Source of the DNA: Tomocerus qinae
Lineage: Eukaryota > Arthropoda > Collembola > Entomobryomorpha > Tomoceridae
Assembly: GCA_020055645.1 (NCBI GenBank)
Contig: CM034546.1
Coordinates: 47,864,001 to 47,928,000, forward strand
Length of the DNA stretch: 64,000 nt
Direction of reading: 5' to 3'
The notes under the pieces were generated by a model. It searched no databases. It saw only the letters and a list, made by a program, of their open reading frames with translations, and had not been told where the DNA came from. Positions 6,857 through 61,500 of this stretch are shown piece by piece (position 1 is the first letter of the stretch; every line of letters begins with the position of its first letter). Made by a program: the position numbers and the translations under genes.

Positions 6857-7009
6857 CATTAAAATTCCAACTTTCAAAAATTCATAAAACGATTTCTATG
6901 AAACCGAGCGTTATAAAAATGATCATTTGAGTTTCTGACTATGTGGTGCACATGCAATAAAAATTTGAAAAATAATCTAAGGGTAATTAGATGTACTTGT
7001 GCAGCTAAT

Positions 7010-19309: not shown

Positions 19310-19460
19310 AAGTTAGGAGGAAGCTTTTCGTATAGTACAAAATCCTGGCTCTATATTCCGAAGATGAGTCCATAAGTTTAAGGAGACAAACTTCAACTTG
19401 AAAGAGAGGCTTGTGAAATGATGATGATGACAGTTAGTCAAGGTCATTCATGAATTATAC
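19310..19460 (+). repeat. dispersed repeat family R1, copy 4
   Basis: Matches 13180-13360 closely, including GGAAGCTTTTCGTATAGTAC, TCCTGGCTCTATATTCCGAA and GTCAAGGTCATTCATGA. Confidence 0.8.
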
Positions 19461-19770
19461 GCATTATGAGAATGAGAAGGTCCGTATATAATTTTTTCTC
19501 AACTCCCTACTCAATATTCATCTAATTCACCTCACAATGGAAAATATTTTCTTGTGGATTCATCTACAATTATTAACAGATTTATAGTAGTTCATAGTTT
19601 AATTCGTAATAACCATATGATTACTTGACTTCTATCATCAAAATACAAAATAGAAACTCTTTACTACAATTGTTTATCTGCTTTCAAGTATAATTTATTT
19701 ATTTTAAAATCAAAGTGTTAAAAACACAGAATATATAATACTTATAACTTCAATATCTTCTGAAAAACAT

Positions 19771-21701: not shown

Positions 21702-22046
21702 AGTAAAATTAGCTATAAGAAAAAACAGATGTTATATACTGATATGGTGTCTGAATATAATGGTCTGATATTTCTTAATTTAACTTAACTTGACTTTAAA
21801 AAGTGTAAAAATTGTCGATTCCCACAATTCCAGGATGACACAGACAGATATTAGAGTCATTTCAATACCTATTTATGTTAATCTGGTGACTGATTACCAA
21901 TTGTGGGAAACCTCTATTTCATATTCATATTTATGATTTTGGATTTAGGTTGACATACTACATACATTTTCCAACTACATACTAGAAAACTAACAACCGA
22001 AAAACAAACTCGCATTTAATTTTATTTTAAACATAAAGTTATATTT
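21702..22046. other. upstream region of zinc-finger gene B
   Basis: About 345 AT-rich bases between the coding start of gene B and the foldback element. No gene or clear motif is seen; it presumably includes promoter and 5' UTR. Confidence 0.4.
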
Positions 22047-22055
22047 CTTAAAAAC

Positions 22056-24232
22056 GGGTAAATCCAGCTAGCCGAATCCGAAGGTCCAGCTAGCCGAAGC
22101 CGAAGGTCCAGCTAGCCGAAGCCGAAGGTTGACACCCGAAGCCGAAGGTCCAGGTAGCCGAAGCCGAAGGTCCAGCTAGCCGAATCCGAAGGTCCAGGTA
22201 GCCGAAGCCGAAGGTACCAGCTAGCCGAAGCCGAAGAATGTACCAGGTAGCCGAAGTTCCGAAGGTCCAGCTAGCCGAAATCAGAAGGTCCAGCTAGCCG
22301 AAGCCGAAGTACCAGCTAGCCGACTCGAAGGTCCCGCTACCCGAAGCCGAAGGGATAAGTGAATCTACCCGAAGCCGAAGGTCCCGCTACCCGAAGCCGA
22401 AGGGATAAGTGAATCTACCCGAACCGAAGGTCCCGCTAGCCGAAGCCGAAGGTCCAGCTACCCGAAGCCGAAGGTCCAGCTACCCGAAGCCGAAGGTCCA
22501 GCTACCCGAAGCCGAAGGTCCAGCTACCCGAAGCCGAAGGACCAGCTACCCGAAGCCGAAGGTCCAGCTACCCGAAGCCGAAGGTCCAGCTACCCGAAGC
22601 CGAAGGTCCAGCTACCCGAAGCCGAAGGTCCAGCTACCCGAAGCCGAAGGACCAGCTACCCGAAGCCGAAGGTCCAGCTACCCGAAGCCGAAGGTCCAGC
22701 TACCCGAAGCCGAAGGACCAGCTACCCGAAGCCGAAGGTCCAGCTACCCGAAGCCGAAGGTCCAGCTACCCGAAGCCGAAGGTCCAGCTAGCCGAAGTAC
22801 CAGCTAACCGAACCCGAAGGTCCAGGTAGCCGAAGCCGAAGGTCCAGCTAGCCGAAGCCGAAGGTACCAGCTAGCCGAAATCAGAAGGTCAAGCTAGCCG
22901 AAATGAGAAGGTCAAGCTAACCGAAATCAGAAGGTCAAGCTAGCCGAAATCAGAAGGTCAAGCTAGCTGAAATCAAAAGGTGAGCTAGTCAATCTGTTTG
23001 TATCTTTGTCCATTCCTTTTTAGAATATGTTGAATCACTTTAGAGCATATCGAATCTTGGTAAAAATGCAACCCTGGATAATAATAGATTTAAAATAAAG
23101 TTTTTTGGAAATTTTTAAATCACTATTCTTACTAAACGCAGAGTATCCCACAAAAACTTTAAACTATAAAGTTGTAGGCAATAATCTCAGATAACTGAAA
23201 CTTGTGGCCCAATCTGCATTTATTTTAAGAAAACTGATTTTTAAAATTTCCACCTTTTAAAAATTTGAAATTCAATAATCTGGAACAGTCAATAATTACG
23301 TTGTACAATTTCCAATATAGTTTCGGGGATTTAATGACTGCAAAAATGGTAACTTTAAACCCCAATTAAAGGGTGTTATCTAATTTTCAAATATAAATTA
23401 TGTACAGATTATTTAAATTGAATTTGAAATTATGTTTCTGCAGTTTATTTTATGACTATTGAAAGGGCGAATCAAATGAAGCCTAGTCGCCGTACTGAGC
23501 CGAGCTAAAAATGAATACATAGTAATTTGGTACGTAATAGATTAAGTACTTGATGCAGTTTAGCTTTATGTATCTTTTGGGTAGCTGGTAATTCGGCTAC
23601 CTGGACCTTCGGCTTCGGGTAGTTGGACCTTCGGCTTTGGGTAGCGGGACCTTCGGCTTCGGGTAGCTGGACCTTCGGCTTCGGGTAGCGGGACCTTCGG
23701 CTTCGGGTAGCTGGACCTTCGGCTTCGGGTAGCTGAACCTTCGGCTTCGGGTAGCTGGACCTTCGGCTTCGGGTAGCGAGACCTTCGGCTTCGGGTAGCT
23801 GGACCTTCGACTTCGGGTAGCGGGACATTCGGCTTCGGGTAGCTGGACCTTCGGCTTCGGGTAGCTGGCCCTTTGGCTTCGGGTGTCATCCTTCGGTTTC
23901 GGGTAGCGGGACCTTCGGCTTCGGCTAGCTGGACCTTCTTATTTCGGGTAGCTGGACCTTCGAGTCGGCTAGCTGGTACTTCGGCTTCGGCTAGCTGGAC
24001 CTTCTGATTTCGGCTAGCTGGACCTTCGGAACTTCGGCTACCTGGTACATTCTTCGGCTTCGGCTAGCTGGTACCTTCGGCTTCGGCTACCTGGACCTTC
24101 GGATTCGGCTAGCTGGACCTTCGGCTTCGGCTACCTGGACCTTCGGCTTCGGGTGTCAACCTTCGGCTTCGGCTAGCTGGACCTTCGGCTTCGGCTGGCT
24201 GGACCTTCGGATTCGGCTAGCTGGATTTACCC
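22056..24232. mobile_element. Foldback-like element with arms of 22-bp tandem repeats
   Basis: Ends are GGGTAAATCC and GGATTTACCC, flanked by a perfect 9-bp duplication CTTAAAAAC (22047-22055 and 24233-24241). Both arms (about 22056-22985 and 23575-24232) consist of 22-bp units, consensus CCAGCTACCCGAAGCCGAAG GT, in inverted orientation around a ~590-bp unique spacer. Odd variant units (a TTGACACCC unit, a GAATGTACC unit, a GTTCC insertion, an AATCAG unit) occur in the same order in both arms, so the arms are true inverted copies. The left arm is longer because of extra tandem units. This is the structure of Drosophila Foldback elements. No transposase is present. Confidence 0.85.
22409..22810 (+). 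repeat. homogeneous 22-bp tandem array in the left foldback arm
   Basis: An almost perfect run of the 22-bp unit with only AGGT/AGGA variation. Three units equal 66 bp, so an artificial 22-residue periodic frame (PEAEGPATRSRR...) is open here and, mirrored, in the right arm. I do not annotate it as a gene. Confidence 0.9.
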
Positions 24233-24241
24233 CTTAAAAAC

Positions 24242-27157
24242 TACGATTTTTAATTTAAAACTTACTTGTGACTGCTGTGACTTAGGTTATTGACTATGAT
24301 TGATTTCGCAGTTCGCAATAATCCAGATCCAGATATTTCCAAAGATTGAAGCAGGGGTACTAAGTACTAAGTACTAACCATACTAACCAACTCCAGCCAG
24401 TGTACAGTTTAGTTGACGTACTTGTGGTTGTGTTTAATGGATAAATGAATGATTCTGTTTTAATTTACTCGTAATTTCATTCTAAATTAAATTTCAAACA
24501 TCAAAAAATATTTTTGATTTTGCATTCGATCAAAACAAAACATCAAGTAAAATAATACTCCGTCGAACAAACTATCAGCTATTTCATATTTAAATTTCGC
24601 GCTCTTTGAAGACTTTTTGAAATTGAGAATGAATTAGACTTGCTTGAGCTTGGGAGTGAGTGGGCTACCACAGTCGACGCACAACGCAAATAAAATTATT
24701 TATTTTTTCTCCCGGGTTGAAAAAAAAGCCATACAAAATGCAATGCATATTAATTATTAACTTCATAAAAAAGTATTTTTATGAGGATGCAGTGGAATCA
24801 TCATTTTAACCACATTTCAATAATGATTTCAGATTTTCTAATATTATAGTGGTAGAAATAAGTCTTGTTTTTTACGTTCTTGTATCCTGCTTGCTTACAT
24901 CCCTAAATATTTTTCATTCCTTTACAATACAATTACAGTGAAATGGCATTGTGTAGACTAATTCTATATGATTCCAATAAATATTGACTCTTAAAATACT
25001 TTAATCGTTGGACGCACGAATTATAACTTTATTCAATATTTAACTTTACAATACAGATTTATATTGAAAATAGTACAGATGATAAAACAAAGGACATGTA
25101 TTATTAAAATAAAATCATAAACTGAAAGCAAGATTTAACCCATGAATATAAAAGCATATAATATTGTTGTGTGCAGTAAAGACATTACGTACTATATTAT
25201 TATGAAATTGTAACCAAATGGACGGAGAACAAGTGAAAGTAGTATTAGTGTCAATACTATATGACATATACTGATATATATAGTAGTATACATACATCTT
25301 ATAATCATATTATATTGATATTGACATATATTTATAACAATTAAGTAGTCTGGTATTTACATCTTATATTTAAAACATTTAAGCGTTCAGTGAGTAGTGA
25401 GTACAGTAGACAGTAGAACAATATTACATTTTTTACAACGTGAAAAATAGGAATGACATTAAAAAAATGAGATCTTACATCATACTGTGTGGTTACTATT
25501 TTAAATAATTAGTTTCACAATTTTTCATAAAAATACAATGCCACCATTGCTAGCACTGAAAAATATTAAATTTTTTAATACAGGGAAAATAGAAGTGACT
25601 GAGTGACATTAAAAAATTAAAAATCAGATCTTAAATAATACCGATATGGCTACTATTTTAAATTATTTATAGTGTTACAACATTTTCTGATTTTTCAATA
25701 TTACTATTTTCAAAAATGTATTACATATTATTTTTATTAGTACTATTTTTATTTTTAGTATTATCTTTATTGTTTTTATTAGTATTATTTTTTTAGTAAT
25801 GTTTTTATTATTTTTATTGGTATTATTTTTATTATTAGTATTATTTTTAGTATTACTTTTATTTTTAGTATTGTTTTTATTATTTTTATTGTTATTATTT
25901 TTATTATAGTATTATTTTTGTTATTTTTATTAGTATTATTTTTACTATTAGTATCAATTTTATTTTTTTATTAGTATTATTTTTACTATTAGTATCAATT
26001 TTATTTTTTTATTAGTATTATTTTTACTATTAGTATCAATTTTATTTTTTTATTAGTATTATTATTACTATTATTACTACTATATTAAATTAGTATTATT
26101 AGTACTAGCAGTAGCAGCAGTATTATTATTATTCACCAGGCCAGAATACCAATGCTATTGCTGAATTTTCTTTGGTCATCAACATTTGTATAATTTATAA
26201 TATCGAAGAAAACTATTGTTCTAACACCTACACAGTGAATGCGTCCTTGGTTTATGTTATATGAAGTGCATAAGTGCATGCTCATTGCAACAATAAGGCA
26301 AAATACATGGTGTAGAACATACATAGACATAGATGTAGATAGACACTAGACACACACGTGCGACATAAGAACAGCTAGTTTTATATAATATGGTACTTAA
26401 TTATATTTAATAGATGGTTTAGTAGGTATTTACAAAAGGAACATTAACTTGAGGATTTGGCTTGGTTTATCCCTTATAGATAGTATAGTAGATAAGGAAA
26501 GGAGGAACAATAGGTCATTTTACAAGAACAAGTCTTATCCTCAATTCGTGAAATTCCTCCCTTATAGAATTCCTTTCCTCAAAAGTAAGATACCATTGAA
26601 TTTCCATGACGAAGCTATGCGGTTGTAAACTCATTAGTATACAGTCGTTTACTTAATTTTTAATTGTAAAATTTCGACCTAATTTCATTACCAGTCTATT
26701 AAATTAGTGAGTTAATAAATTTACCTTTTCAGTTCTATCTAAGTTAAATATTTCTGTATTTTTTTGCTTTTCTGTAAAACAGTTGAAGTTAAGTACGCAT
26801 CTATTTACACACATTTTTATCAGAAGAATAGTTGTTTAATAAAATGTAGTAACGTGTTTAAGTTCTGTCGTAATTTCTGAAATTATTCACTGTTTTGGTA
26901 AGTATTGCATTTCACTCCTTTGTATTTGAGGCAAGGCAGAGATAATTTCATTACGTTTTAAAGTCGTTAATGACTAGTTTTGTTTAAAATAATGACTACT
27001 AGATTTAATGACCTAAGTGAACCCCATTGTACTAGAACCTGGTATCTCTAACCTGAAATTTTGAAACTGAAGTGTGTAGCATTGGTAGCAAATGTGTCGT
27101 TTATAGTAAATATTTTATTTTTTAGTTGTTATTTGAGGTCAATTTGAGATACCAGAG
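24242..27157. other. gene-free AT-rich stretch
   Basis: Nothing with coding support is visible. It holds a low-complexity TTATT-rich tract at about 25690-26130 (listed separately). A short inverted repeat (AGAACCTGGTATCTC near 27034 and its complement near 27147-27163) may mark a small unclassified MITE into which the hAT element at 27166 inserted. Confidence 0.5.
25925..26070 (+). repeat. 41-bp tandem repeat within a T-rich low-complexity tract
   Basis: TAGTATTA recurs at 25931, 25972, 26013 and 26054, an exact 41-bp period, each unit containing ACTATTAGTATCAATTTTAT. It lies in a longer (TTTTTATTAGTATTATT)-like tract from about 25690 to 26130. Confidence 0.85.
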
Positions 27158-27165
27158 GTTCTTAT

Positions 27166-27762
27166 CAGTGTACAAAATTTACCACCTTTTAGCCTTTTTT
27201 ACCATCACAGTGGTAAAATTGCACTTAATGGTAAAAATGCATTTAATGGTAAAAATGGTAAATTTTAGCGATTGATAAGATAGCTGAGTACAGATACACT
27301 AGACTTCCTAAAATATAAGTTTTAAAACTTTATTTTCTATGAAATATTTCTAATTAGCCACTTAATCAATTAAATTATTTATATTTATTTGATTGTTCAC
27401 CAAAAGTTATAAAAAAATGAGAAAAGAAAGATTGTATTGGTATCGCCCATTTAAAATTGATGCTAATTTAATTGCAATTAATTTCTCAATCGGCAAGGGT
27501 AGTTAGCGCCCCCATTGGTTGAATCCTACTCTGATTGATGAACGCTTATCAATTTGTGACAACAATGATCATCTGCTAAGCTATTTCATACTTTGGCACC
27601 GAATTTTATTCAAAATTCAAACACGAAATTTAAATGAAACTATTTTTTACCATTTTTACCATTTACACCACTTACCACTACTTTTTTGGTAGTGGTATTT
27701 AACGTTAATACCATTAAAAACCACTTACCACTGGTAAGTGGTAAATGGTATTTTGTACACTG
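27166..27762. mobile_element. hAT-type MITE
   Basis: 597 bp with imperfect terminal inverted repeats starting CAGTGTACAAAAT and ending ATTTTGTACACTG, flanked by a perfect 8-bp duplication GTTCTTAT (27158-27165 and 27763-27770). The interior is full of GGTAAAATGGTAAA / TTTACCATTT motifs near both ends, typical of subterminal repeats. There is no open frame. It lies about 230 bp downstream of the zinc-finger gene C stop codon. Confidence 0.85.
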
Positions 27763-27988
27763 GTTCTTATACACGGCGCGTCAATTATAGTTACTAAATA
27801 ATATGTTTGTTTGTAATTACAGTTCTAAAATAGTAAACATAGAGCTATGAGCTAATTCATACCCGACCATGCAAGCAAAATACAATTTTACCACGGCCTG
27901 CGTAATTGTATTTTTTGCAGGCACAAGACAAAGACATTATTCTTTCAGTTGGGTGACGCATCGCGCCAATGAATTGATATTTGGATTT

Positions 27989-30742
27989 TTAATTAGATTT
28001 TATAACACTGTCATCAGAAAACTCAAGTGCAGGATGAACCTCACGGTAGTGCAATTTTACCAATTCCTGAGTCGCAAAACTTTGTCCGCACTGCCGACAA
28101 TTAAATACTATGGTCCTGTAATGCACTCGATATTGATGTATTTTTAAGCAATGTCGGTTGCCAGCATAATCACATTTGTCACATTTGTAATGTTTGTCTC
28201 CAGAATGCACCCTCAAATGCCTTTGCAAGAAATTCCTTTGCGTAAATGCCTTGCTACACGTTGGACATTTGAATCGTTTTACATTCGAATGATGCAGTCG
28301 ATAATGAAATTTCAAAGTACCATTATGGTTGAAAGATTTGAAGCAGATTGTACAAATAAAAGGTCTGTCACCTGTATGGGTTGCAATATGCCTCATCAGC
28401 TGATATTTACGCTTGTATCTTTTGTTGCAATAGTTACATTCGTGTGGATATTCTTCACGGAAAAGCGCTTTGTGCCTCTGATTACATCTATCATTGCCAT
28501 CGTCGTTAATGTCGCCACCTTCTCCAGGAATGTCATCGTTACGAAATGTAAGTGGAGGAGATGTGACCATTTCGTTGGCCTGAAATTGCTCTTTGTTGAT
28601 GAATTTTATCTGGTCTTCATTGTTTCGCGAGAAATTATTCTGAGGTTCAAATTTGAAACTCAGGCGTCTATTTCCAAACGTGTCTCCGGAAAATCTTCTA
28701 ACCGCAGCGCTTGTCGTCGGTTCATTCGATTTATGAGAATGTGGAGACGATGTCATTGCACGGCTAATATGGAAATAACACAACGTAATTAGATTTTTAA
28801 GCTTCGCATTCATAGCCCTAGGATAATGAAAAAATTAGCTACCAACATTTCCATTCATTTTGGTTAAAAAATATATCAACAGTAAGGGAAAACGTGTTCC
28901 AGGAAAAAATATATCAGTTACGACTAATCGTCCCGAAAGGAAGCACTTAGCCCCAATGACTTATAAACAGGGTGGATATAGATTATTTTTTTAAAATGGA
29001 TATCAATTTCGTGTACAAAATGAAAAGTGGATTTTAAGGCTAAGTGGTTCCTTAAAGGACGATATCACTTTCTTCAATAATTAATGAAAACTGAAATTAA
29101 TGGGAATATCTGTAGGAATTTTACGCATATAAGTATAAAATTCTAGCGAGAAAATAGAATATATTTAAAAAGAATATACTGTATAAGTATAACTCTTATT
29201 AATTTCTTAATTTCCTTTACTACAGGAATATAGCATTGAGTAAGCAATGTTAAATATTTTAAGTACCGCCGTTCCAGTATAGCATTTTTGTCGTAGAGCA
29301 TGAAGTTGGCCTCCGAAATACTTTTTGACCAGATTGGTTGGAAACCCTGGTTTTCTTCATTGGCAGCTTCTCGAAATTGGTTTACAACGGAAAAATTATT
29401 GTAAACCTCCACTTCTGTAAGTAAACAAATATTTTTGATTTATTTACACGACATTATTAAGATAAACACCAAGCTCGTGTTGTTAATTCTAAATATCAAA
29501 AATGAAAAATCTTAAAGTGAAAACATTTAAAATGTTTTCCAGGGCGTAAATACTAGACTTTAGATTCGATGGTATAAGTATAATTTCACCTTGTATCGGG
29601 TACCGATCCGATCCCAGCTAGCTAAGCTAGCTTAGGAGCTGATCGGTGGATACTCAATCTTAAAACAGGCCTCCTGTTTCTGTATTACTCGTTCGGTACT
29701 TCTAAGTTGCAAATTGCAATTGCAACTTAGCGATGCCAAAGCAATATAAACTCATGGAGACCTGTTTTTAGATTGACTGTCCATCGATCCTTCTGAGCTA
29801 GCTACGCTGGCTGGGATCGGATCGGTACCCGATAAAATTTCATCACTGAATTAGAGCTAATTTAATGCCCATAATAAGCATGGGACTTTATATCTGAATT
29901 AATTATCTATTAAATATGTTTAATGGGCACATCATGTTCTCTGTAAATGTTTAGACAGCTGATAAAATAAAATAATTTACTGAATATTTAACTTGATAAT
30001 ATGATGCAAATACAAAAAATGGGCATTTACTGTTGTTTTCTGCAGTTGAGATTTGATTTCGACGCTCCAGTCGGTCCCCTGAAATGTTTTCAATTCCAAT
30101 GCTTGAATTTTCAAGCGGAAGTGAAAACCTGGTGGTGCGTTTCTCAATATTTTGGTCGATGTCATTATTGTTTACAGTAGATTCTTGTTGGTAATTTTCG
30201 AAATTGACACCGGCGATATTATGAGAACTTTCATCCTGAGCCAAAATCCCAGCAAACAACGGAGCAACGTATTCATCTGTATTGCGAGTTCCTGAGATAG
30301 TTTCCTCTGACTTAATATCGGGTTGCACTGGAGATGATGAACGGGGAGTATTAGCACTCCATGAATCAAAATTCGGAATTATGCCACGGATGTTTGCAAT
30401 TTTCCCTCGACGATTAAGGATTTCCATGGAAAATATAAATATCAAATTATTGATACTTTTTTGGATGAATTCAATTTGTTCCCCGAAGTCAGCCAACTCC
30501 ATGGCTGACTCGTAGCATTTCATACACAGTGAAAACGTCTCGCCCTTTTTGGGTAAATTTGACTCTTGAATAATTGCGCAGTGTAAATATTTCCGACACA
30601 ATTCGACGAGTTTTGCAGTGTCCTCGTATCCTGGTGGAAGTGGATTTGGTGGAATAAATCCCACGTTGCAGAATAAGCAATTCATTTTCGAATTGTAAAT
30701 TCGAGAACGTGACGACAATGCCGATTTCATCATAGATGCCAT
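27989..30742 (-). CDS. ZAD-like C2H2 zinc-finger protein C
   Basis: Three minus-strand exons, 30742-30031, 29414-29267 and 28763-27989, with introns in phases 1 and 2 as in paralogues A and B, encode 544 residues. The ZAD-like module has CxxC at residues 22/25 and 73/76, with conserved LVELCRKYLH and FGEQIEFIQKSINNL segments. Five C2H2 fingers lie at about 396-416, 424-444, 453-473, 481-501 and 509-530, two more than in A and B. Intron 1 carries a mariner-like MITE and intron 2 a small TIR element. The first ATG in frame is 30742; an acceptor-like TTTCAG near 30835 suggests a 5' UTR intron. The likely role is a DNA-binding transcriptional regulator; the target is unknown. Confidence 0.85.
28928..29062. 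mobile_element. small TIR element in intron 2 of zinc-finger gene C
   Basis: A 135-bp segment with ~25-bp imperfect inverted ends (TCGTCCCGAAAGGAAGCACT TAGCC against its complement with about five mismatches). No clear target duplication is visible, so the class is open. Confidence 0.5.
29596..29832. mobile_element. Tc1/mariner-like MITE in intron 1 of zinc-finger gene C
   Basis: 237 bp with ~55-bp terminal inverted repeats beginning TCGGGTACCGATCCGATCCC and ending with the complement, flanked by TA on both sides (29594-29595 and 29833-29834). The TIRs contain AGCTAGCTxxGCTAGC palindromes. It has no coding sequence. The TA duplication fits Tc1/mariner. Confidence 0.75.
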
Positions 30743-32935
30743 TTGCAAATGATTTGGTTGTTTCTTATCCGATTGAGGGTAAAAGACTTTCCAAATTCTT
30801 TTGTCGCTTTCAGACTTCAGACTACCAGAATTACCTGAAATTCAAAATTAATTATTAAAACAATTGAAGTTAAAATTAGTAAGACAATGTATTACAAAAT
30901 TTATTCATATTTTTATGTTCATTACATACGAATATTGAAAACACTTTCTGGGTTTCAGGGCTGATGAAGAAGAGAGTAGTGTAGCTTTAAGGACCAAGTT
31001 TGAGGCAACATTGAAGCAATCGCTAAAATTCTTTACATAAGACTAGACAGAGTACACTAATAATGTGTAGGTGGCTGACGTCCGTCGATGCCGACTAGGT
31101 AGGTCGAATGATAACGACTGACTAGAAAGAAAGATCAAATTTCAGATCAATTATGAAAAAGAAATGTACAAGAAGACTGAAGCAGGCAGTAGCAGCGGAT
31201 TGACTGACTGTCAACTGTTTATGCAGCCGAAAAGTAACAGCCACTTGAATCACGCGGTCTCTGTCTCTGAATTATGTGTGTTCGTGTTCGTTCCTTGGTA
31301 CCCAAGAAGACTCAGACCCTCTAATTGACATTTGATACGTTTTTTGGTTATGAAATTTTTCTACGGCGCAATTTGCGACTGCTTATTATGTATGTTACAT
31401 TTTACATTTTAACGACGATCAGATCTAAATGTCATATCTTAGATCGATACATTCAGATATTCAGAGGTCAGACCGTTTCGTTTGCTATGATATAATCGTT
31501 TTTCTTTCAAATCTTGTCTAGACTAAAACTTAAGATTTAAAAAAAATGGTATTTGGCCAATTGAGATATTAAAATCTGGTTTATCTAAGTCCACCTAAAT
31601 GTCAATTATGAAGTTGGCTTTGGCTTTCTAACCCTTAAGTATGATAATTTTCATATCTAACTCATTCTAATTATATAACTATTAACTATACGCTTACAAA
31701 ACTCATGAATTACTATAATTCCGGAATTAGAGGCATCATGGATACTGACATTCTGCTACAATGTAATGTGCATTTTTGACAAGTTCAATGCTGTCCGAAA
31801 GAAATGCTGCTTGCTTTATAGATGGAAGAAAGCATCTTCGTTAAAATCTGCTTCTTGTTCTCAATTTCTATATCAGGATTGGCAAATAAATTCAGTAAAC
31901 AATGGTTTTCCACTAAAAACTATAACTAATGCAGAAAGTGAAGACATCCTGGCCCCTATTTCACAATAATTACAAGTCTACAACTACAAACTTGTAGAAT
32001 TGTAGTCTGTAAACAACAAATACTTGTCATATGCGTTTCATGAAATTTTTAGGAATTTCGTTGACAAGTCACAGATACTTGTAAATTGTAGCAACACTTG
32101 TAACTGTTCACTATGGTTACATTGCAATTGTTGATCATCTAGTATTTACCTCGGGTAATTTATCTCCTATTAACTTACTAGTCACCTAGGTGACAGTTGA
32201 CTGCTCAATACATTTTCAATCAAATGTATGCCTCAGTATGGAGTTACAATGAGGCGATGGAGGTCTAGGGCACTGTAGAATTTGTAGCTACAAGTCCTAC
32301 AATTTACACAAACTTGTGAAAACAAAAGATGGTAATGAAAACAATCTTTGAAAATTCAATCATTACAATTGTAATTACAAGTGAATTTAATTGTAAATGT
32401 GACAAATTGTAAGTTTCTTTGTGAAACAAAAATGACACATGTTTGTCGACAACTACTTGTACTTGTAGACTTGTAATCATTGTGAAATAGGGCCCTGATA
32501 TTATAACAACTCCAAACTGTATGATGCTACTGTAGTGTAGACTATGAATTTGTTTTCAAATATGTAACAAATTTTAATAGCAGCAGCATAACAAAATGAT
32601 AACTAGCAGTAAGTTTCACGCTTCAATTAATAGAGTAGTTTCCCTGGTGAATGTTGAAGAACAAATCGGGTTTTCCCGAAAAAATAACAAAACCACTAGG
32701 TTACCTCAACCATTAGATAGCCGGGAAATTTGACTAAACAAGCGGCCATCTAATCTTAGTTCAGAACTGCGTCCTGTCTCACTGTTTCTCTGCCCTGTTC
32801 TCACTTTTTCAAATTCAAAATTCGCCCGCGTTGTTTGTGTTGTAAATAATTTGTATTATAATTTGGTTTCATAGTATTTTTAATATTTCTACGCCTAAAT
32901 CTGGGACATAAATTTTTCCAAAATTATCCGTCAAA
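30743..32935. other. divergent intergenic region between zinc-finger gene C and the doublecortin gene
   Basis: The two flanking genes are transcribed away from each other, so both promoters should lie here. No gene is seen. It contains a TIR element at 31952-32493. A 5' UTR intron of gene C may end near 30835. Confidence 0.5.
31952..32493. mobile_element. MITE with GCCCTATTTCACAAT-type ends
   Basis: Terminal inverted repeats of about 30 bp: left GCCCCTATTTCACAATAATT, right GTGAAATAGGGC, continuing with ACAAGTCTACAA-type sequence. CCTG flanks both sides (31948-31951 and 32494-32497) and may be the target duplication, but the G/C-run ends make the exact border ambiguous. The interior repeats ACTTGTA/TACAAGT motifs. 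The superfamily is not assigned. Confidence 0.7.
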
Positions 32936-41656: not shown

Positions 41657-44600
41657 TCAACCATTTCGTAGCTCTCGAAACTCTTTCTCGTCGATGCCTC
41701 TTCCCTGACCCCCTTCTAGTATATAATAAGCGGCTTTTCGGTCCAAGTATCTAGTAAAAGGCTCAAAGTCTTCTAAATCCCAACTAACTCTTCCAACTAC
41801 GATCATCTTTATTTGTTTCCGTAACAACAATACTAAAGCTATTGGGTTGATTGGAACACCTGTTACCCAATCATCAAAGTTAAAGTCATCTGACAAAACA
41901 AGAATATCTGTTTGGAAGTGATTCAGAATTATTTCAACAACGTCTTTGAAAGGAAACCTTTTCAAAATGAGTTTTTCCAGTTTTCTCACTCCGCCGAATA
42001 TTTTTGTACCAAAATAAGTCATTTTTAATTGTCTAAGGCTCTGTGGTAGCAGATCTATATCCACTATTTGGCCATAAAGATTAATTTCACTCAAATGTGT
42101 TGATTTCAACAAAGGAAAGGTAGGATTAAAGTTTAATTTTAAGTATTGCAAGTAAGGTAAATCTATGATTCCATCACAAATAGTTCCCGATACTGCTAAA
42201 ATGAGTTTTTGAACTGTTTTAGGTACACATGAAATATCTATGGAAGATTCACTAAAGTGCAGTTCTTTGATGTTCATCTTAGTCATCTCCTTGAATGGCA
42301 TACCTTTTAATTTCAATTTGTCGATGTTCCAGTCGGATTGCCCCCACGCCAAAACTCTGACATTTTTTAAGTAGACATAATCCATAGTGATGCCATGACT
42401 CAAATCAATTGCTATGTTTTTCTTCTGGGACTTAATTGCAAGTCTAATAATTGTATCCAGGTCTAGAAATCCGTTTACAGTATCGTTTTCCAATTTTAAT
42501 CCATTCCCTGAAAATGATACATCAGATAATTGAACTTCCTTAGCAGAGAGTCGATTAGGAGGAGATAGGCACAATGACATGTCCATCAATTCAATTTTCT
42601 GAAATGCATCAATTAATTTAAAATTAATAAATTCATTATTCTCATTTGTGATGTAATAATTGGAGCCAATCAATCCACCACATATCTGGAATAAAATATC
42701 CAGTGATTCGCTTGTATAAATAGCCTGCATTTGGTTTCCAGTCTCCAGAATTTCCTTTGCTCTATTTTTGTTTCCAAATCTCCAATGTGCAAGTAGCAAA
42801 TGCCCTCCAATCAGTTCTTTTGGACAAAACTGAGTTGTTGCAAGCAATCTCATTTCTACGGTATATTTTCCTTCTTCGCTCGTTGAATAAGTGTAGAGGT
42901 CCTCCAAGACCACGATGGTATCTTCCAACTGCCCGTTTCTATCCAGACAACTGGCATAGTTGAATCTAGTACTTGTCGTCTTTACTTCTTCATCGATCAG
43001 TTTCGACACTTGGACAGATTCCTTCAGCATATTTTCTTGTAGCAGTGCCAACAAAATTTTTGCTATATGGTTGTCATCAGCTATTTGCTTCACCATTGTC
43101 AAAGCTTTGTTAATATTTCCCATTTGTAAGTATAAACAATACAAGAATTCTACTACTTTCTTTTCACTTGGTTCTTCATTTAGATCCAAGCATTCCCACC
43201 TTTCTTCAATTTTTATTTGTATCGTATTTTCTTTTATGTATTCAAGTACCTTCTGCAGACCCCTGGACAAATCATTTTCCGTAGCTTCATTTGTGGAAAA
43301 CAATTCTGCTAAATTTTCCAAAGTCTTGACAGAATCTTCGGTCTGTCCATTCTTCTGCAGACAAACTGCGTAGTTAAATGTAGAAGTAGTTGTCATCAAA
43401 TCTTCGTTAATCAATTTCGATACTTCGACACATTCCTTAAACATTTTTCCTTGCCCTAAATGAGAAACAATTGCAGTTATTTGGCTCACGTTTTCCATTT
43501 TATCCACCATTGTTAAAGCATCATCAATATTTCCCATCCGCAAAAAGGAATAGAATAAGAAATTCATGATTTCATTTTCTTTTGGTTCATTTACTAGGTC
43601 AGTGACTACTAATTTATGGTGGGGAATGTTAATTCTTAATTCATAAATTTTTATAAAATGAAGCATCTCTTCCAAAGTTTTTGAAAAATCATTATCTGCT
43701 GCTTTTCGTTTTGTAAAAGATTCGACATGATGTTTCAAAATTTCGACACACTCATCGGTTTGTCCATTTTTCTCCAGACAAATGGCGTAATGAAATTTTG
43801 TTTTCGTTGTTCTCAATTCTTCGTTTACCAATTTAGATATTTGGACAGATTCCATAAACATCTTTGCTTGAAGCATTTTAAATATAATTATAGCTATTGG
43901 TGTGTCGTTAGTTATTTGGTTAGTAATGGTTAATGCTTTGTCAATTTTTCCCAATTGTAAATAGACAAGGAATAAATAAATCGCAGTGTAGACTTCTATT
44001 TGCCCTTCTTTCATAACATCAAACTTGTTGTCGTCTTCGTCACTTTCTTCCCCAATGTCCTCTACTAAGTTAATTTTTATCTGTAACTCATTATCTTTAA
44101 TATATTGAAGCATCTTATCCAGAGTTCTTGAAATATCTGTCTGTGGCATTTCTCGTTTTGTGAGTATTTTTTCTAGGTTATTTAGCGTTTTTAAACATTC
44201 TTCAGTTTGTCCAAATTTTCCCATAATTAAAGCTTGTAGTATTTTCGGGACCATCGCTAGGGCTAGTTTTTGTTTTTCGTCAGCATCCACTTTCAGAAAT
44301 AGGGAAAATTTATCAAGTTCTTTTTCTACGTCATAACCAGAGAACTCTGATTGATAACCTCCTTGTATTTTGGAAACATCAAAGTTTAAATCTGGTTTCT
44401 TGATGGCTGATAAGAAATCTCTGTACTCCTCAAGTTCTTCATCGTCTATGTCATAATCAGAGGACTCTGATTGATAGTCTTCTTGGGTTTGGAAAGAATC
44501 CAAATCTAGGTATAAATCTGGATATTTGTTGGCAGACAATAAATCTCTAAGTTTCTGAAATTCTTCCTCGTTTATGCCCCTCCCCTTTCCACCCTCCAAC

Positions 44601-47600
44601 AAATAATAATTTGCTTTCCTGTCAAGAAGACTTCGCAAACTCTCAAATTTTTTTTCTCCCCAATGTATTCTTCCGACCGCAATTGTCTTTATTCCTTTCT
44701 TCACTAATTCTGTTAGCTCTGGTGGTTCAATTATATAGTTAATAACAAGATTTTTAGTTTCAAAATGACTTACATACTCTTCCACTTGTTCAAAAGAGAA
44801 ATCTTCCAAAATAAGCCTATCGAGTTTCTTTCGTCCACCAACGATCTTCGTCGCTGTAATTCTATTATGATATTTGGTGATTTTGATATTTTTAACCATT
44901 TTTGGCAATAAAATCAAATTTACTTCTTCCATCTCTTCAAAATGAACGTGAGTAATTGGGACTGAACGAAAATAAGACAATGAGAAGGAGTTGGACATAT
45001 TCTCCAATGCCAAGTACTTTAAGTTTGGCAAATTGATATTTTCTCCACAATATGCTTCTGTTCCACGTAAAGTTAATTTTTCTAGCGTTTCTGGCAGACA
45101 AGAAATATTTAACGAGGAGTAGTGAATGTATAATTCTTTGATTTTCATTTTGCTTTGTTCTACGAATGGAATAAATTCCAATGTAAGTTCCCGGATATCC
45201 CAGTTAGCTTGTTGCCAGTCTACTAGTTTAACATCTCTTAGACGACAATACTCCATAGATATTCCGCCAGTTAAATCAATTGAAATGTTATGATTCTTAC
45301 TATAATTGAGAATCAGGCGGTTGATTTTGCCAAAATCCAAGAAGTCGTTAAGAATTACTTCTGCATCTAATTGTTTTCTATTCTTAGTGAACGAGACTTC
45401 AATTAACTTCAATTTTTCTGGACAGAGTTGAAGAAATGAAGACAAGTCCAGCGAACAGTTATATAATTCGATGTTAACTGTATCTCCATATAATTCCAAT
45501 TCAATAAATGAATTACTAGCAATGAGAGAGTAATTGGAACTGATGAAACCAGAATAAACAATCTGAAATACAAACCCTAGAAATTCTGTGGAGTAAACAA
45601 TTTTGAACAGTTTTCTTTTCTTAAGAATGTCAACTAGTTTTGTTGTGTTACTCAATCTCCAGTGATCTATCAGCAAATGACCGCCAATCAAATCTTTTGA
45701 CACGACTTCAGTCAAATCGATTATTCCCATGTCCACTGCATCTTCTTCAAACCGCCCTTCCTCTCGAATTAATTCAATGTACAATTGTTCCAAGATTTCC
45801 AGGCTATCTTCTAACTGTCCGTTCTTGTCCAAGCAAATTGCAAAGTTGAACTTGGTAGTATTTGTATTTAACTCTTCGTAAATCAATTTTGACAATTGGC
45901 AACAATCTTCATACATCTTTTCTTGAAGCATTTTAGCTAAAATTTTATTTAAATGTGGACCATCGCCAATTTGGGGGACCATTGCTAAAGCTTCGTCGAT
46001 GTCCCCCATTCTTAAATAGGCGTAGAATGAGAAATTCAAAATATCAGTTTCATCTGGGTTTGTGTCAGTGTCCATAAGTACCAATTCTTCCTCCTGAATC
46101 TGTATTTGTAACTCTTTTGTTTTCATGTAATGCAGAACTTTCTCAAGAGTTCTCGACATATCATTGTTTGGTGTGTCTTTTACTGTAAACGACTCTACTA
46201 GACTCTTCAATATCTTGACACATGCATCTTTCTGCCCACTCTTCTCTAAGCAAACAGCGTGGTTGAGTTTAGTCGTCGAAGTCTGCAACTCTTGCCAAAT
46301 AGCATTTGCCAGTCTGACACACTCGTCGTATCTCCTTCCATTAAATATTTCAGTTAATTTCCTTTGGTTAATTAATTTTGCTTGCAGCTTGGGTAACTTT
46401 TTCCTCAATTTGTCATCGGCGTATTGGATGAATGGAGTTATTTTGTATTCACTGAATCCTTTGCAGCCAAGAATTTTTCTCAGCGTCTTTATTTCTGTAT
46501 CTTTTCCATTGTGACGGATAACTTGTTGCAGCAATCGATGAATACTTAAGGAATCGGCGGATTCTTTAATATCCCTCGAAATTAAAGAATACTTGATTAA
46601 TAATTCAATCGAGTTTTCGATATCTTCAAAATAAAATATTTGCTTAACAAATTCCAGGTCAATATCATCCGGGCGAATGTAACCGAAGACCATTAAAATT
46701 TTTTTGGCCAATTTCCCATCGCATTCTTTCATGATCATTTCCAAAGTGATTTTAATGTTTCTGTTAATTGTTTTCTCATAGTCATCAAAATGTGCCTCGA
46801 CAATACGTTCTACATCTTGGACAGTTGTTTTTTCGATGTAGTTCTGCAAATTTATTTTTCCGCAATTCAGTGTTGACACAGCCAGTTGAAGAGCCAATGG
46901 AAGGTTTCCTAGCATACTGCATAATTCTTTCAGGTTATGCTCGGTCGTTATTATTTCTTGATTTAAGTTTCCACTCAGAAATTCCAGACTTTCTTCTTCG
47001 TGAAAAATGTTCAGTTCAAACGTTGATAACTTCCCATAGGCACCAGAATCTTCCCAGTCCCGACTTCGTGAGGTAATCAGGCAATGAAATTTCTCTTGAC
47101 ATCGAGGTAAGACTTTTAATATGCCGTCCGTCCCTTTGTAACATTCGGCGTTATCGTAAATCCACAAGCATTTAAAATCGCTCAGGTTTTCAAAACTTCT
47201 CCTTGCGAAGTCCTCTACGTTGACATAATTGTCCCAGTTGTCAACCTTCAGTTCCATCGCCAATTTTTGAAAGCATTGGAGTAGACCTCCTTCCCCAGAG
47301 TCAATCCAAATAATTCGATCATAATTTTGTTCATATTGGTGGGCAAACCATTTGGCCGTTAAAGTTTTTCCAATTCCTCCCATCCCTGAATATTTAGCAG
47401 CATCAGCAGATTCACAAATTACGACCATTTTGTTATCATCATTAGAGAGACGGTCATGTAGATGTTCCACGAGCAATCTTGATCCTATTTTTCTCTTGTG
47501 GAGTGATTTTATCAGCGGCTTTTTGTCTGGCCACCATTTGGTTTTCACAAATTTCAGGTTTTGCGGTTTAGAAAGTTGCTTTGAACCTCCTTCGATTTTA

Positions 47601-50069
47601 TTTGCACAGTGCTCGTTACTAGTGTCATGTAGTATTTGTAGAAATGTAGTTTTATTTTCATTTGTCCACTTTCTTTGAATGACGGTCAAGAGTCTGTGAT
47701 TCTTTTCGAGGGAAGTCTTTTCAACTTTCTGTAATATTAATGAATTTCACTAAACTATGATGCCAAAAACTATAAATATCTACATGGAAAGCTTCTGAAA
47801 TCTTTAAAAAGTAGCAAATTCTAATTACCTATTAAAACCTATAAATTCGTAATTGCAAGCAATGTCTGTAATTATTAAGCATATTTATCTGCTCACCAAA
47901 AGTAATGTATGTATTAATCTCTATATATAATCGCAGACTTGATAAAGCAATAAATTTACCTGTCTATATATATATATATGTATGTACGTGTGGTAGGGAG
48001 AACCTAGGGAACCTGCATGTATTATGTAACGCAAAACCTCCTCCCCCATGTGTAAGGCAAGTGCTGACTGCAACACTATATCTCCTTCTCCCATCAACTG
48101 CACACGTAATATATGAAGGCTCCTTAAAAGCAAAAAATCAAAATGCGCAAGCCCAATTCCTCTAAACCAACGAAATGAGTCGTTTCATATTATTATTATA
48201 ACATCAAAATAATAATTACATAAGAAGGTTGAATGGTGAGTGGGGATCGAATGGAAATGATTAGCGAAAGCTAACATTTCGTAATGATCGTAATATGCGT
48301 ATTAAATATTATTTCCAAACTTCTAAACCAAATTGGTTCTGCTACATCGACAAACTTATTCAACATTTTTAGTAGAGCTGGGTTTACTTTTTACAACCCT
48401 TTCGATTCCTTTGTGCCAGTTGGGACATCGTTTTATAGAATTAAATAACAGTACTGGGAGCCTCTATTTATTCTTTAAAAATATTTGTCTTTCATTGTTC
48501 CCTGTATTTGATGCTACGATCTACAGTTATTATTTTGGTGTAGGAAATTCTTTTTATCAGGAAGTTCGGGCTGCAGCTAATTTTACCAACCACTGTAGAA
48601 AATAAAAGTGTATTAATTTAAATATACTTTGTATTTACAAAGGTAACATAATAGCCTAATGGGATGTTTTCGAAATTGTTTTTATTACTGTGAAGGGTGG
48701 CCTGCTGAATTTCTCTTGAGTGCTAGATTTGCCCATTATAGCTGGGTTCACTAGTTAATAATACTAGATATGTTTATGTAAATTACTATTCCACCCAAAT
48801 AGAGTTGCATCCAATTCTACCAATAAGCCAGTATTTTTATGATACTGATGCTACGGTGTCAGGTAGGTGTCAAGCAATTTCAAATGCTGGAGCTGAGGTC
48901 AGCAAGTACAGAAATAAAAAAGCAACGGAAAGCACGAAAAATATGGTAACCAATTAAGTCCTAGCATGACTATGTTACCATGGTCAGAATTTTAAGTTGT
49001 TCGGGTATTTCTGCTTAATGTAGAAATGATTATTTTGTAACACTTAAATATCCTTGGCACCGTACGGACAAACCTCTCGAGCTCTCATGCCTCCACCCTT
49101 TTAGGTGCTCCTCGCTTTGCCGGTCTTGTATAGCAATAGCATTTCGTTAGCCGTAAAAATTTTTAAGCTTAAGGCTGCCTCTACAACCAATTTTCTGCTA
49201 TACCACGAGGTATTAGCTGTAAATGATAAACCTGGTCGACTAGTAAGTAAGTATTGAAGTAGAATATTATCTACATGTGTTTTTTTATTTTCTAATAGGG
49301 CTGTCTATATATTACGGCGTCATAGATGTTAGTTCATTGACTCTTATCATTTCATGTATTTGAATAGCTGAATTTCCAAAATCCAAATCGCTCATCGTGT
49401 GTATGACGTAGGAAGTTAAAATTTGTCTCAAAAAACGAGCAAAGAATTTAACGGGTTGTGAAATGCTTTTTGGACATTTTAATCGTTTGCTATTTTAAAA
49501 ATTGAGCTGTACAATGTGAGACGTGTAAGTGTAAACTCCCACTCCAAACCCCAAACTTCGGTCAATTTTCCTGCTTTCAATATTGAAAATTTCAGAAAAC
49601 GAAGCCTTACATGCCCTCGATACTTAAGTTAAGAATCGAGGACTGTAAACAAAAGTCGGCTATTTTTTGAAATGAGCCCAGAAATTGGAAACCCATGCTA
49701 GCTGAGGCAGCCTTAATAAAAAGCTAAAATCTCCCAAATATACTTCAGATCTATCTCGTTGCAACATTCAACATTTCTACATGTACTATCTTCATAGCTT
49801 TTAACAATAATAGCAAAAATATTAGTTGAAATATGTGATATGTAAATGTATTTATGAAAATGATACTAGTACTATGCTGGCTATTTTGCTGATAAAACAA
49901 TATAGCTTATGACTAGAAAGATATTATTCTTATAAAATTTTTAACTTACGATCTCTTCGCTTTCGTGTTCCGATATTATGTCATTTTGAATCAAGTGTAA
50001 TAATATTTCAATAAGGTTTGTCAGATTTTTTGTTAAGTAAACGAGATTTTCTTTGATTTCGTTTGCCAT
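41657..50069 (-). CDS. CARD / NB-ARC / TPR-like / LRR-like STAND protein (NLR- and Apaf-1-like)
   Basis: Two minus-strand exons, 50069-49950 (40 codons from an ATG) and 47725-41657, joined in phase 0 over a 2.2-kb intron, give about 2062 residues. Residues ~1-85 look like a CARD: NLIEILLHLIQNDIISEHES EEI from exon 1, then NHRLLTVIQRKW and FLQILHD from exon 2. The NB-ARC follows: P-loop GMGGIGKT at 154-161, Walker B CLWIYDN at 226-232, CLITSRSR at 255-262, GNLPLAL at 313-319, and an MHD-like IHRL at 435-438. The rest is two large modules, each of TPR-like helical repeats (recurring FNYAxCLxKNGQxExxV) followed by an LRR-like block, ending YYLLEGGKGRGI (about residue 1080) and YYILEGGQGRGI (about 2043). 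By family, the CARD would recruit caspases or adaptors and NB-ARC nucleotide exchange would drive assembly. It is not canonical Apaf-1, which has WD40 repeats. About nine residues are inserted just before the P-loop. The acceptor choice (AAAG at 47726) rests on frame. Confidence 0.8.
47918..48754 (+). mobile_element. non-autonomous Helitron-like element 3
   Basis: Starts TCTCTATATATAATCGCAGA after an A and ends GCTGGGTTCACTAG before T, the best-preserved ends of the three related elements (others at 16725 and 18401). A CCCA/TGGG stem lies just before the end. It sits in the intron of the CARD/NB-ARC gene and has no helicase coding. Confidence 0.7.
49173..49712. mobile_element. MITE with GGCTGCCTC ends, flanked by TTAA
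   Basis: 540 bp with terminal inverted repeats GGCTGCCTC / GAGGCAGCC and TTAA on both sides (49169-49172 and 49713-49716), with a further shared CCAATTT(T)CTG inside the ends. It lies in the intron of the CARD/NB-ARC gene. TTAA suggests piggyBac-type targeting, but the ends are not the usual CCC; a 3-bp TTA/TAA duplication (Harbinger type) cannot be excluded. Confidence 0.65.
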
Positions 50070-58504: not shown

Positions 58505-61500
58505 TTAATCAGATTCGTTTTCTTCGGAATCGTGTTCGCTTTCTTCAGATTCTGAACTATCTTTGGAATGTTGGTCGGATTTGGAATTAATTACTGCATC
58601 AACAATTTGATCATCAGTCAAAATTTGGTAGCCTACATCTTCAGAATCTTCCTTCAGCCACTGTTCAATATCCTGTAGATCACAATCCGAAAACCCACTG
58701 AGATTTTTGGCAATCAGGATACAATTTTGTATCATTAAGGTTTCACTTTCGACGACTCCAGAGTCAGGCCAAAACTTTCTCCAAGAACGCTGCAATGTAT
58801 TTCTTTTTAAAGCTGTCCATGAAACAGCAGCAAGATTAATAGCTTCTCTTGCACTGAAATTCGTCCAAAATTGTAATAGAGTATCTGAGTTTCCATTTTC
58901 CAGGGCAAGCAAACGTTTAAGGAGAGCCTCACGATATTGACTTTTGAAATTGTCTATCACACCTTGTTGCTGGACCATACAATATAATTCTTAAATTTTT
59001 TAATTTAACTTTTTTAATTATTTCATTTTGCATATATTTTATACCATTGGTTGAATAAGCGATGCGATATTGGACGGCAGGAATTGTACTTTGAATTGTC
59101 CGTCTTCAGTCTGCAGCATCTCCTCCCACGGGTGAATAGGAGCACTATCCAATAACAGAAGGGCCTTTTCGGGTAAATTGTTATCCCGATTAAATCTCCG
59201 AACGGTTGGAACAAATTCGTGGAAAAACCATTTTGTAAAGATGTCTCCGTCCATCAAACCGTCCTTCTGACATTTGTACCAGATTGGCCAATCTTTATCA
59301 CTTTCTAGTAAGCAGCTTCGTTTTTCTGTTTTCCCAATGACGACCAAAGGCATCCGATTTGTTCCACTTGCGTTCGCACAAAATAATAGTGTTAACTTGT
59401 CTTTTTCGGAACCATTTGCATTGGGACGAGAAATAACACTTTTGGAAGGCAAAGCTTTCCAATTTAGTCCAGACTCGTCACAATTGTAGACTGTGTCTAG
59501 AGTATAACCCCCATTATTAACTGTTTGTGTAAATTCCTGGTAATAAGAACAAGAATGGTCAATAAAAAAATAATTCAAAAAAGACTTTGCAAATTGGTTT
59601 CAATTTAATCTATCTAAATAAAAATGTTTATTCCTATGTCTCAAGTATCTATCTATGCCATGGGAAATGAAGCTTTTTGTTACAATGCCCATGCGCGTAT
59701 ATACAATGCATATTTCATAAAAAAAGGTAGTCCAATATGAATGAGCATTAGCTTATTTCGAAAATTAAACATTGTTAATTTTTTGCCTAATCATTTTGAA
59801 ATTCAGCATTAGCACTGGGAGCCTAGTAGATAAATAAAATTATACCTGCATGAAATTTTCATATTCGGCTTCATTTTCCATTTGTTTCTTTCCCCACGTG
59901 CTTATTTGCTTGATTCCATGTCTTTTTTGAAACTTGAACAGCCACCCACTACTTGCCTTAAAGGAATCTCCACCTTTTATCTTTTCGTTGAAGTACAAAG
60001 CTTTTTCTCTAATTAAAGGCCCGGATATCGGTTCACCAAGACTTCGTTTTTGAGCAAACCATTGAAATACAGCCTTTTCAACGTCTCTATTTTGTGGATC
60101 TCTAAAAGCTTTACGATCTTTGCTTCGTTCAACAGGATCAGAAAAAAAACTTGCTATCTTAGCGCTGTTTTTCTTTATTAACGTTATGGCTGCAGGTGAG
60201 ACAGAGAATTCGCTACATAACAGACTTCTGTAATTCAAAAATTTATAAAATATATTAATCATATAATATATATATATATATATATATGATTAATATAAAA
60301 TATTAATCATATACATTTTCGATAACATATATAAGCCAATTACATGAAATTTGAAACAAAAAAAAATAATTATAGATTTTGAACGGAGAATACCTTTTCT
60401 CCCCCTTTTTAAGTCTTTTGGTGATTTCAAACTTGTCTTCCATAGATAAACGTTTTCGCTTTCCTTTTCGCCAACCAACATTGGGAATTTTTTCAACTGT
60501 TAAAATATTTCATGAAAATGTATTTATTCCAGAATATTAATTTTTAAATAATAACTAGACATTTAATAGCAATTTTTAATTTCCTAAAAACATTACTCAT
60601 TTTCACTACATGGAAAACGATTTATGTTTGAACTTAGAATTGACACCTTAATAAAAACCATTTAGAACATTATTTTAGTACCTTCATTATTGTGAATATC
60701 ATGATCGCCTTCGACTTCGCAATCAGATAATATAAAATCTGGATCCTCAACGTCGCCTTTTCCAACATCTATTGTAACTTAGAAGGATTATACAAACTTT
60801 TACAAATTATGATAATATTAGCATAAATTAAAAATAAGCATAATTTGTATTTTATTTTAAATAAAAACTAAGCATATAAAATCGTATTGGGCAAACACAT
60901 GTTTAGACACTAATGTTTAAATCGAATTGTTTATTATAGTGATTAGGTAGAAAATATATTCCGCTTACCAGCTTCTAGTTTTATATTTTCATGATCGGAT
61001 TCTATTATCGTTTCTGCGTTAGTGAACTTTCCATCAGTTTGATTGGGACTTGCATAGTCAGAAGTTAATTGAGAAGGTTCATTGGTTGTAATTACACTTT
61101 CTCTTGGTTCTATTTAAAAATTCATTTATCAAAGTTATAACGTAATATCTCTACGCAATACGATAGCATTTAAAATTTTGAATTTGTAACGTTCAACTTA
61201 TTTTCAACGCATATATGCCCATTTTTAGGAGAATAGTTTTGAAGTGGTGTGCTAAATTGGTGTATATGAACACAAATCAAAATTATGATGATTAAATGTT
61301 TAACAAATTGGGTTTATACTTTTTCGACGTCGTTGAACCTTTTGTCTTGGAGTACTTCCTTCATTTAAATCGACAGATTGAATTTTTGCAAATCCACTAG
61401 GACCAATTACTTCACCTTTAACCAGAACGCTAAAATTAACTTAAGTTTAAACAAAATGTCGTAAATTCAATTATAATTGCAATTTTTGAAGAAACAGCTG

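Follow-up and report, generated by a model that had tools for sequence, protein, structure and literature searches.

Animal NLRs of the NOD1/2 and NLRC4 type are built from a CARD, a nucleotide-binding oligomerisation domain (NOD) and C-terminal leucine-rich repeats (LRRs), and in lamprey variable lymphocyte receptors (VLRs) the LRR strands have hypervariable positions within an otherwise constant framework. Here we describe a gene of the springtail Tomocerus qinae that occupies positions 41657-50069, on the minus strand, of a 64,000-nucleotide stretch of contig CM034546.1 (the window; gene coordinates below are window positions). We think it probable that this gene is a divergent, doubled-sensor member of a germline repertoire, roughly a hundred or more strong, of cytosolic immune receptors of the CARD-type NLR (STAND) class, with an extremely diversified LRR face. 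The basis for this reading is gene structure as seen through conservation, domain content, family size and hypervariability. The large family, the doubling of a module in this gene among the members scored, and the hypervariable LRR face all go beyond an earlier note on this DNA, which was made from the letters alone.

The order of CARD, nucleotide-binding domain and C-terminal LRR(-like) repeats is the same in the Tomocerus family as in animal CARD-NLRs, but the Tomocerus proteins have an NB-ARC rather than a NACHT domain, and a block of tetratricopeptide repeats (TPRs) lies between NOD and LRR. They share a CARD and an NB-ARC with Apaf-1, Dark and CED-4; the window gene has no WD40 match and is distinct from the Apaf-1 of its own genome. 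The bacterial FxSxx-COOH NB-ARC-TPR protein (NF040586) resembles only the core of the gene. Among arthropods, NLRs are described as lacking an N-terminal effector domain in a metazoan survey (PMC11508797), and an NLRC has been reported from shrimp (PMC12370184). Plant highly variable NLRs (hvNLRs), whose variability clusters at surface positions of the LRR where aromatic residues are exposed (PMC8226289), have an NB-ARC, LRR(-like) repeats and variable positions within these repeats in common with the Tomocerus family; the latter differs in having a CARD instead of CC or TIR, and its variation lies between paralogues with near-identical framework DNA. Fungal NLRs with hypervariable WD, ANK or TPR repeats, in which conserved repeats are under positive selection at just a few exposed sites (PMC4986451), likewise combine a STAND core with conserved repeats and few variable positions, but theirs vary among repeats and are reported to include no LRR motifs, whereas here LRR positions vary across paralogues. 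A lamprey VLR is put together somatically from an incomplete germline gene and donor cassettes (PMC13428168); the Tomocerus arrays, in contrast, already stand complete in the germline, and their hypervariable blocks are rarely shared.

Literature searches, with most subscription papers outside their scope, found nothing on NB-ARC in springtails or Collembola, and no NLR-related paper on Collembola or Folsomia candida, judged partly by titles, was found to describe such a family. A search combining NLR, NB-ARC, CARD and TPR in an arthropod gave only fungal and brown-algal work, and no title or abstract opening among the papers listed described such a family. The expanded 'Leucine-rich repeat domain superfamily' reported in the genome paper of Entomobrya proxima (PMC10432511) may correspond to the Tomocerus family.

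A split-CARD gene and its domains

The gene has two exons. Exon 1 (49950..50069) supplies the start codon and the N-terminal half of the CARD in 40 codons; its product starts MANEIKEN and ends SEEI, directly before the donor GTAAGT. A phase-0 intron of 2,221 bp (47729..49949), placed by its splice signals and the aligned paralogue acceptors, then interrupts the CARD. Exon 2 (41657..47728) comprises 2,023 codons (47728-41660) and a TGA stop, and belongs to a minus-strand open reading frame (ORF; 47746-41657) that is open across 2,029 codons. The acceptor ...ATTACAG aligns with those of the paralogues; with it exon 2 begins at 47728, in phase 0, and the predicted product has 40 + 2,023 = 2,063 aa. 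Hence the two-exon model of the earlier note stands, and its acceptor position (47725) and length (2062 residues) were one codon off.

Homologs of exon 1 were found by tblastn in 11 of the 28 paralogous genes searched, with 1.5 kb of upstream DNA for most of them and ~3 kb more for eight. In ten of these 11 exons, L004 being the exception, the donor GTAAG follows the same codon; the acceptors align as well. Purifying selection acts on exon 1: among ten sequences (L004 and L024 left out), the proportion of nonsynonymous differences (pN) was below that of synonymous differences (pS) in 45/45 pairs (mean pN 0.31, pS 0.72). Further copies of exon 1 occur in L053 (one) and L054 (two), and a CARD is demonstrated in the window gene and 13 paralogues. 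Since paralogues at ~50% identity retain the same gene structure, chance is excluded, and we regard it as confirmed, on comparative sequence grounds, that the gene is real and that exon 1 is joined to exon 2. Other members of the family presumably bear a CARD as well. In L054 the two exon-1 CARD halves stand in tandem (1665-1856 and 1975-2217, minus strand) upstream of one large exon, an arrangement that suggests alternative first exons.

On the joined exons the CARD matches PF00619 with an E value of 1.6e-11 (44.5 bits, cut-off 23.9), its C-terminal half lying at 47585..47728; the joined CARDs of ten members, including the window gene, all match this model (10/10). The nearest solved CARDs are those of CARD8 (4.2e-7) and RAIDD (6.4e-6), with Apaf-1 at 0.012. 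The NB-ARC NTPase follows at 46850..47398 (PF00931, E 2.5e-12; 4.6e-13 when the region was scanned apart), with the P-loop GMGGIGKT found by pattern match at 47364-47386. In a Pfam scan of all 2,029 aa at once the NB-ARC was unlisted. When regions were scanned apart, a DUF7779 match fell slightly below its cut-off. The NB-ARC and winged-helix core as a whole (46499..47476) is akin to bacterial FxSxx_TPR proteins: NF040586 is the best-fitting curated model (E 1.8e-35), at 122.6 bits against a cut-off of 300 bits.

Behind this core come two rounds of TPR and LRR-like repeats. TPR region 1 (45677..46429) matches TPR_19 at 25.9 bits (cut-off 25) when scanned alone, and TPR models exceed their cut-offs in both halves of the protein when the regions are scanned apart; with the first 1,079 aa scanned together, the best TPR match was 20.3 bits, under the cut-off of 25. 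LRR-like array 1, of FNIP type (44540..45526), has positions that align with the x-L-x-x hypervariable sites of the paralogues described below. An acidic linker between the modules (44237..44542), read from the translation, contains a tandem duplication of ~40 residues. It is followed by TPR region 2 (42797..44245), with three successive blocks ~135-150 residues apart, and by LRR-like array 2 (41663..42640), which is 43% identical to array 1; in each module the LRR-like portion is the last ~330 residues. Neither array of the window gene has a convincing Pfam match (FTH at E 4.3 for array 1, FNIP at E 1.9 for array 2). FNIP, which we take to be an LRR-type repeat, matched 10 rows of the 22-row family alignment with E values of 0.01 or below (best 1.8e-5), the window row being unmatched. 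The arrays may adopt an LRR fold. No WD40 match was listed in the Pfam scans of the product, and a search of the family profile against the PDB returned no chain at E 0.01. The features of an NLR in the broad sense are present, namely a death-fold effector domain, a P-loop NTPase and C-terminal superstructure-forming repeats. The earlier note had proposed a CARD, an NB-ARC and duplicated TPR and LRR-like modules, an architecture that these matches bear out together with the 40% identity between the two modules. It had also named profile searches for the four domain types; these recovered CARD, NB-ARC and TPR, and not the LRR-like arrays of the window gene.

A large family with hypervariable LRR positions

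A search for paralogues, another suggestion of the earlier note, uncovered a large family. In the 334,443,149 bases of the genome there are at least 126 NB-ARC matches (126 scored of 253 candidates), one of which is Apaf-1, and at least 122 LRR-module matches (122 scored of 584 candidates), some of them partial or adjoining pieces and two within the window gene. By hand count, at least 113 of the latter span 200 or more of the 329 residues. DNA encoding GMGG[IV]GKT occurs at 116 exact sites (reversed control, 0), and among the matches listed at least 62 of these sites lie at C1:27.99-38.79 Mb. For comparisons between members we used an alignment of the window gene with 21 of 22 paralogues (L011, with a short frame, was omitted), and a core set of 18 paralogues obtained by removing the window gene, L024, L026 and L028. 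L001-L008 stand outside this alignment, being Apaf-1, other clades or members with short flanks; L008 and L029 denote one gene. In L003 (G000:C1:66035320-66039033), a ~350-residue N-terminal region within the first ~375 residues of a 1,108-aa frame replaces the CARD half; this region includes a hydrophobic stretch, has no Pfam match and possibly represents another type of effector.

We called an alignment column hypervariable if its amino-acid diversity among the 18 core paralogues was 0.7 or more. In the LRR array 36 of 315 columns are hypervariable, mostly at x-L-x-x, once per ~20-residue repeat, and the autocorrelation of variability peaks at lag 20 (0.255; 2,000 permutations gave a 99.9% quantile of 0.205). 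The hypervariable residues are rich in tyrosine (10.4% vs 2.2% in the framework) and tryptophan (6.4% vs 1.5%). Over 153 pairs their distance averages 0.84 and does not correlate with that in the NB-ARC (rho 0.08, p 0.34); framework distance also shows no clear relation to NB-ARC distance (rho -0.15, p 0.06). L015 and L027, the closest pair by NB-ARC (9% of nucleotides), differ at 86% of hypervariable residues. In each of 12 hypervariable blocks the 18 genes carry 14-18 different codon haplotypes; 139/153 pairs share none of the blocks, 14/153 share one and no pair shares more.

The framework around these positions is nearly constant, even at synonymous sites. Four-fold diversity in the core 18 is 0.07 across the LRR (halves 0.086 and 0.062) vs 0.38 in the NB-ARC; with all 21 paralogues the values are 0.129 and 0.108 for the LRR halves and 0.41 for the NB-ARC. 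Along the protein it drops from 0.24 to 0.08 near residue 740 and then stays at 0.03-0.12, with a shallower dip (0.16-0.23) at residues 380-460. Six further paralogues, from eight stretches of which the more divergent L072 and L073 were left out, repeat the pattern (0.084). Because synonymous diversity in the framework is low too, constraint on amino acids alone is insufficient as an explanation.

At the codon level, 66% of differences between hypervariable codons involve two or three bases; the figure is 20% for other LRR codons and 27% for NB-ARC codons. Pairs with the same residue use unlike codons at a frequency of 0.143 at hypervariable sites, 0.055 in the LRR framework and 0.301 in the NB-ARC and winged helix. 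Synonymous change is 0.102 adjoining hypervariable codons and 0.124 between two of them, vs 0.039 at four or more codons away. The leucines interposed between hypervariable codons keep one codon in 16/18 genes in two blocks and in 15/18 in a third. Diversity at the three positions of hypervariable codons is 0.63, 0.52 and 0.41, with all four bases occurring. Nonsynonymous divergence (dN) is below synonymous divergence (dS) in the NB-ARC in 12/12 paralogue pairs (L015/L027: 0.050 vs 0.289) and above it in the second half of the LRR in 10/12; for L015/L027 the dN and dS of the two LRR halves are 0.111 vs 0.092 and 0.129 vs 0.062.

At an entropy of 1.5 bits or more we count 44/315 columns in the LRR, 15/49 in the CARD half, 35/224 in the NB-ARC, 29/144 in the winged helix and 37/249 in the TPR region; at 2.5 bits or more the counts become 21, 2, 0, 3 and 1, respectively. 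The LRR therefore stands out at 2.5 bits and by contrast with its own framework. Variable columns outside the LRR are accompanied by diverse synonymous sites, unlike those inside it. By the hvNLR criterion (10 or more alignment positions with at least 1.5 bits, mostly in the LRR), which is meant for near-allelic clades and not for paralogues, the number of positions is reached and 'mostly LRR' holds only at 2.5 bits (paralogue alignment, n=18).

The two C-terminal modules of the window gene are homologous, with 40% identity across 629 aligned positions. No best match of the 22 paralogues compared extends past residue 1,082 of the window gene's ORF, and after that ORF the 126 NB-ARC matches offer no open frame longer than 1,460 aa; among the members scored, only this gene therefore has a doubled module. 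A recent internal duplication as the origin of module 2 does not agree with the 40% identity. In an unrooted tree the two modules group together, apart from 16 paralogues (100/99), a topology that would fit an old internal duplication or the fusion of two genes from a single divergent lineage; module 2 forms a long branch whose placement is unsure. At hypervariable sites defined from the paralogues, the two modules are identical at 4/33 positions vs 128/275 elsewhere (Fisher p 1.3e-4). The gene is likely to represent a divergent lineage, at ~50% identity to other members, in which a second TPR+LRR sensor follows the first.

Other features of the window and genome

The window also contains two tandem, closely related hydrophobic proteins (3069-4370 and 7728-9017), which by eye we take to be gustatory-receptor-like; the two ORFs scanned have no Pfam match. 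Between them, at 6081-6861, lies an 18-bp tandem array of ~45 copies. Three units at 14079-30841 (minus) each consist of a cysteine-rich ORF and then a C2H2 zinc-finger-like ORF; the three cysteine-rich ORFs scanned have no Pfam match, and the one of three zinc-finger-like ORFs scanned matches zf-C2H2. Arrays of a 22-bp satellite occur in opposite orientations at 22063-22965 and 23592-24225, in a stretch richer in GC (0.41 at 20001-24000; 0.29-0.36 in other stretches of the window). Transposase remains span three frames at 58505-60289 (minus), the middle one matching DDE_1 (E 4.4e-24). Elsewhere in the genome there are 114 matches to the cuticle-protein family PF00379, to our knowledge confined to arthropods, and a 374-aa single-frame 2OG-Fe oxygenase (L032; G000:C1:120031776-120032060), perhaps horizontally acquired. 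It very strongly matches PDB entries named ethylene/succinate-forming enzyme (E 9.3e-146) and probable iron/ascorbate oxidoreductase (E 5.2e-134); identification as an isopenicillin N synthase was rejected, since it is nearer to other oxygenases.

Competing explanations and a proposed mechanism

The earlier note had favored an immune or cell-death receptor over an apoptosome core, and the present results agree in favoring a receptor, with a putative immune or cell-death role. CARD followed by NB-ARC is also the order in an Apaf-1/CED-4/Dark-like adaptor for developmental cell death, but such a function is very improbable here: a separate Apaf-1 gene (L001) is the best NB-ARC match of the genome and hits Apaf-1 structures at E 5.8e-35, the family profile has no PDB match at the threshold used, the CARD is nearer to CARD8 and RAIDD than to Apaf-1, and the gene carries TPR and LRR-like repeats with no WD40 match and has many paralogues. 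Even less credit can be given to a decaying or mobile-element-borne family with relaxed variation, which would account for copies with stops or short frames; the consistent excess of synonymous change in the NB-ARC (12/12 pairs) and exon 1 (45/45), the conserved LRR framework and the periodic variability all speak against it. A repertoire for another non-self task, such as allorecognition or the control of symbionts or transposons, is unlikely but deserves more weight, given that fungal STAND proteins with hypervariable repeats are reported to act in conspecific non-self recognition (PMC4986451); a CARD effector in an arthropod would better fit innate immunity.

The pattern in the LRR may reflect either a framework homogenised by gene conversion with fast divergence of contact codons, or mutation focused on those codons. 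Of the rivals, the one we take most seriously, while still judging it improbable, is that contact codons on a constant framework are diversified, beyond what selection does, by mutation that is precise to the codon, whether in the soma or in the germline. In its favor are the multiple base changes in hypervariable codons (66% vs 20%), the framework four-fold diversity of just 0.07, the 86% difference already present between L015 and L027, and the raised synonymous change beside hypervariable codons (0.102-0.124 vs 0.039). On the other hand, the interposed leucines mostly keep one codon, as expected from selection alone, and all three codon positions vary, with no adenine-only signature. Diversity-generating retroelement (DGR)-like, adenine-specific mutagenesis is likewise unsupported, as three codon positions and four bases vary, and VLR-like cassette shuffling was rejected because the hypervariable blocks are almost private to each paralogue. 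We favor diversifying selection together with gene conversion as the probable cause. As to the NB-ARC-TPR core, a recent bacterial transfer is unsupported: a GTDB scan with two peptide patterns yielded one relative at 29% identity, and an ancient transfer is possible. That gammaproteobacterial protein (L055, PIVX01000039.1), from a metagenome-assembled genome, has a frame of 1,185 aa that encodes an NB-ARC-like core and, by eye, many TPR-like repeats; HRLLQQVIR is common to it and the family.

Several observations weigh against a CARD-NLR immune repertoire. The CARD exon was seen in 11 of 28 paralogues, mostly within 1.5 kb of upstream DNA, and with the extra ~3 kb it was found in 5/8 and not in L010, L013 or L023. 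Some copies have short or interrupted frames (the longest frame of L011 is 703 aa). The LRR fold is proposed from a ~20-residue periodicity and from FNIP matches, which 10 of the 22 rows show. Columns of 0.7 or more also occur in the CARD (13), NB-ARC (17), winged helix (18) and TPR region (12), at 1.5 bits the share of the LRR (44/315) is not above that of the NB-ARC (35/224), and the first half of the LRR has dN>dS in just 4/12 pairs. All evidence comes from one genome, with variation compared between paralogues. The exon-1 signature was absent from ten caspase loci (L056-L065, of 38 matches), a search that differently split CARDs would escape.

We infer the immune role, the LRR fold and its face, ligand binding, activation and partner, and propose the following mechanism. 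The concave face of the LRR-like array would bind a pathogen or effector molecule through a surface where paralogues differ at two to three exposed residues in each repeat. Binding would free the NB-ARC from a clamp formed by the TPRs and winged helix, nucleotide exchange would drive oligomerisation, and the clustered CARDs would recruit a CARD partner, for example a caspase or an adaptor. Since the genome encodes caspases (38 exon-level matches), signalling from CARD to caspase is possible. A CARD-encoding ORF that adjoins no listed NB-ARC match (L052:1495-1776, minus; PF00619 E 1.3e-8) is a candidate signalling partner. Between paralogues, the framework DNA is held near-identical, probably by gene conversion, while contact codons would diverge through strong diversifying selection.

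Should the less likely explanation, mutation directed at contact codons, nevertheless be right, roughly a hundred or more CARD-NLR genes would be diversified codon by codon while their framework is continuously homogenised, forming an antibody-like intracellular repertoire. This would be a targeted diversification unlike Dscam splicing, VLR assembly or the allelic variation of plant hvNLRs. With constant framework DNA and saturated contact codons side by side, the family makes the choice between selection alone and targeted mutation testable within one lineage.

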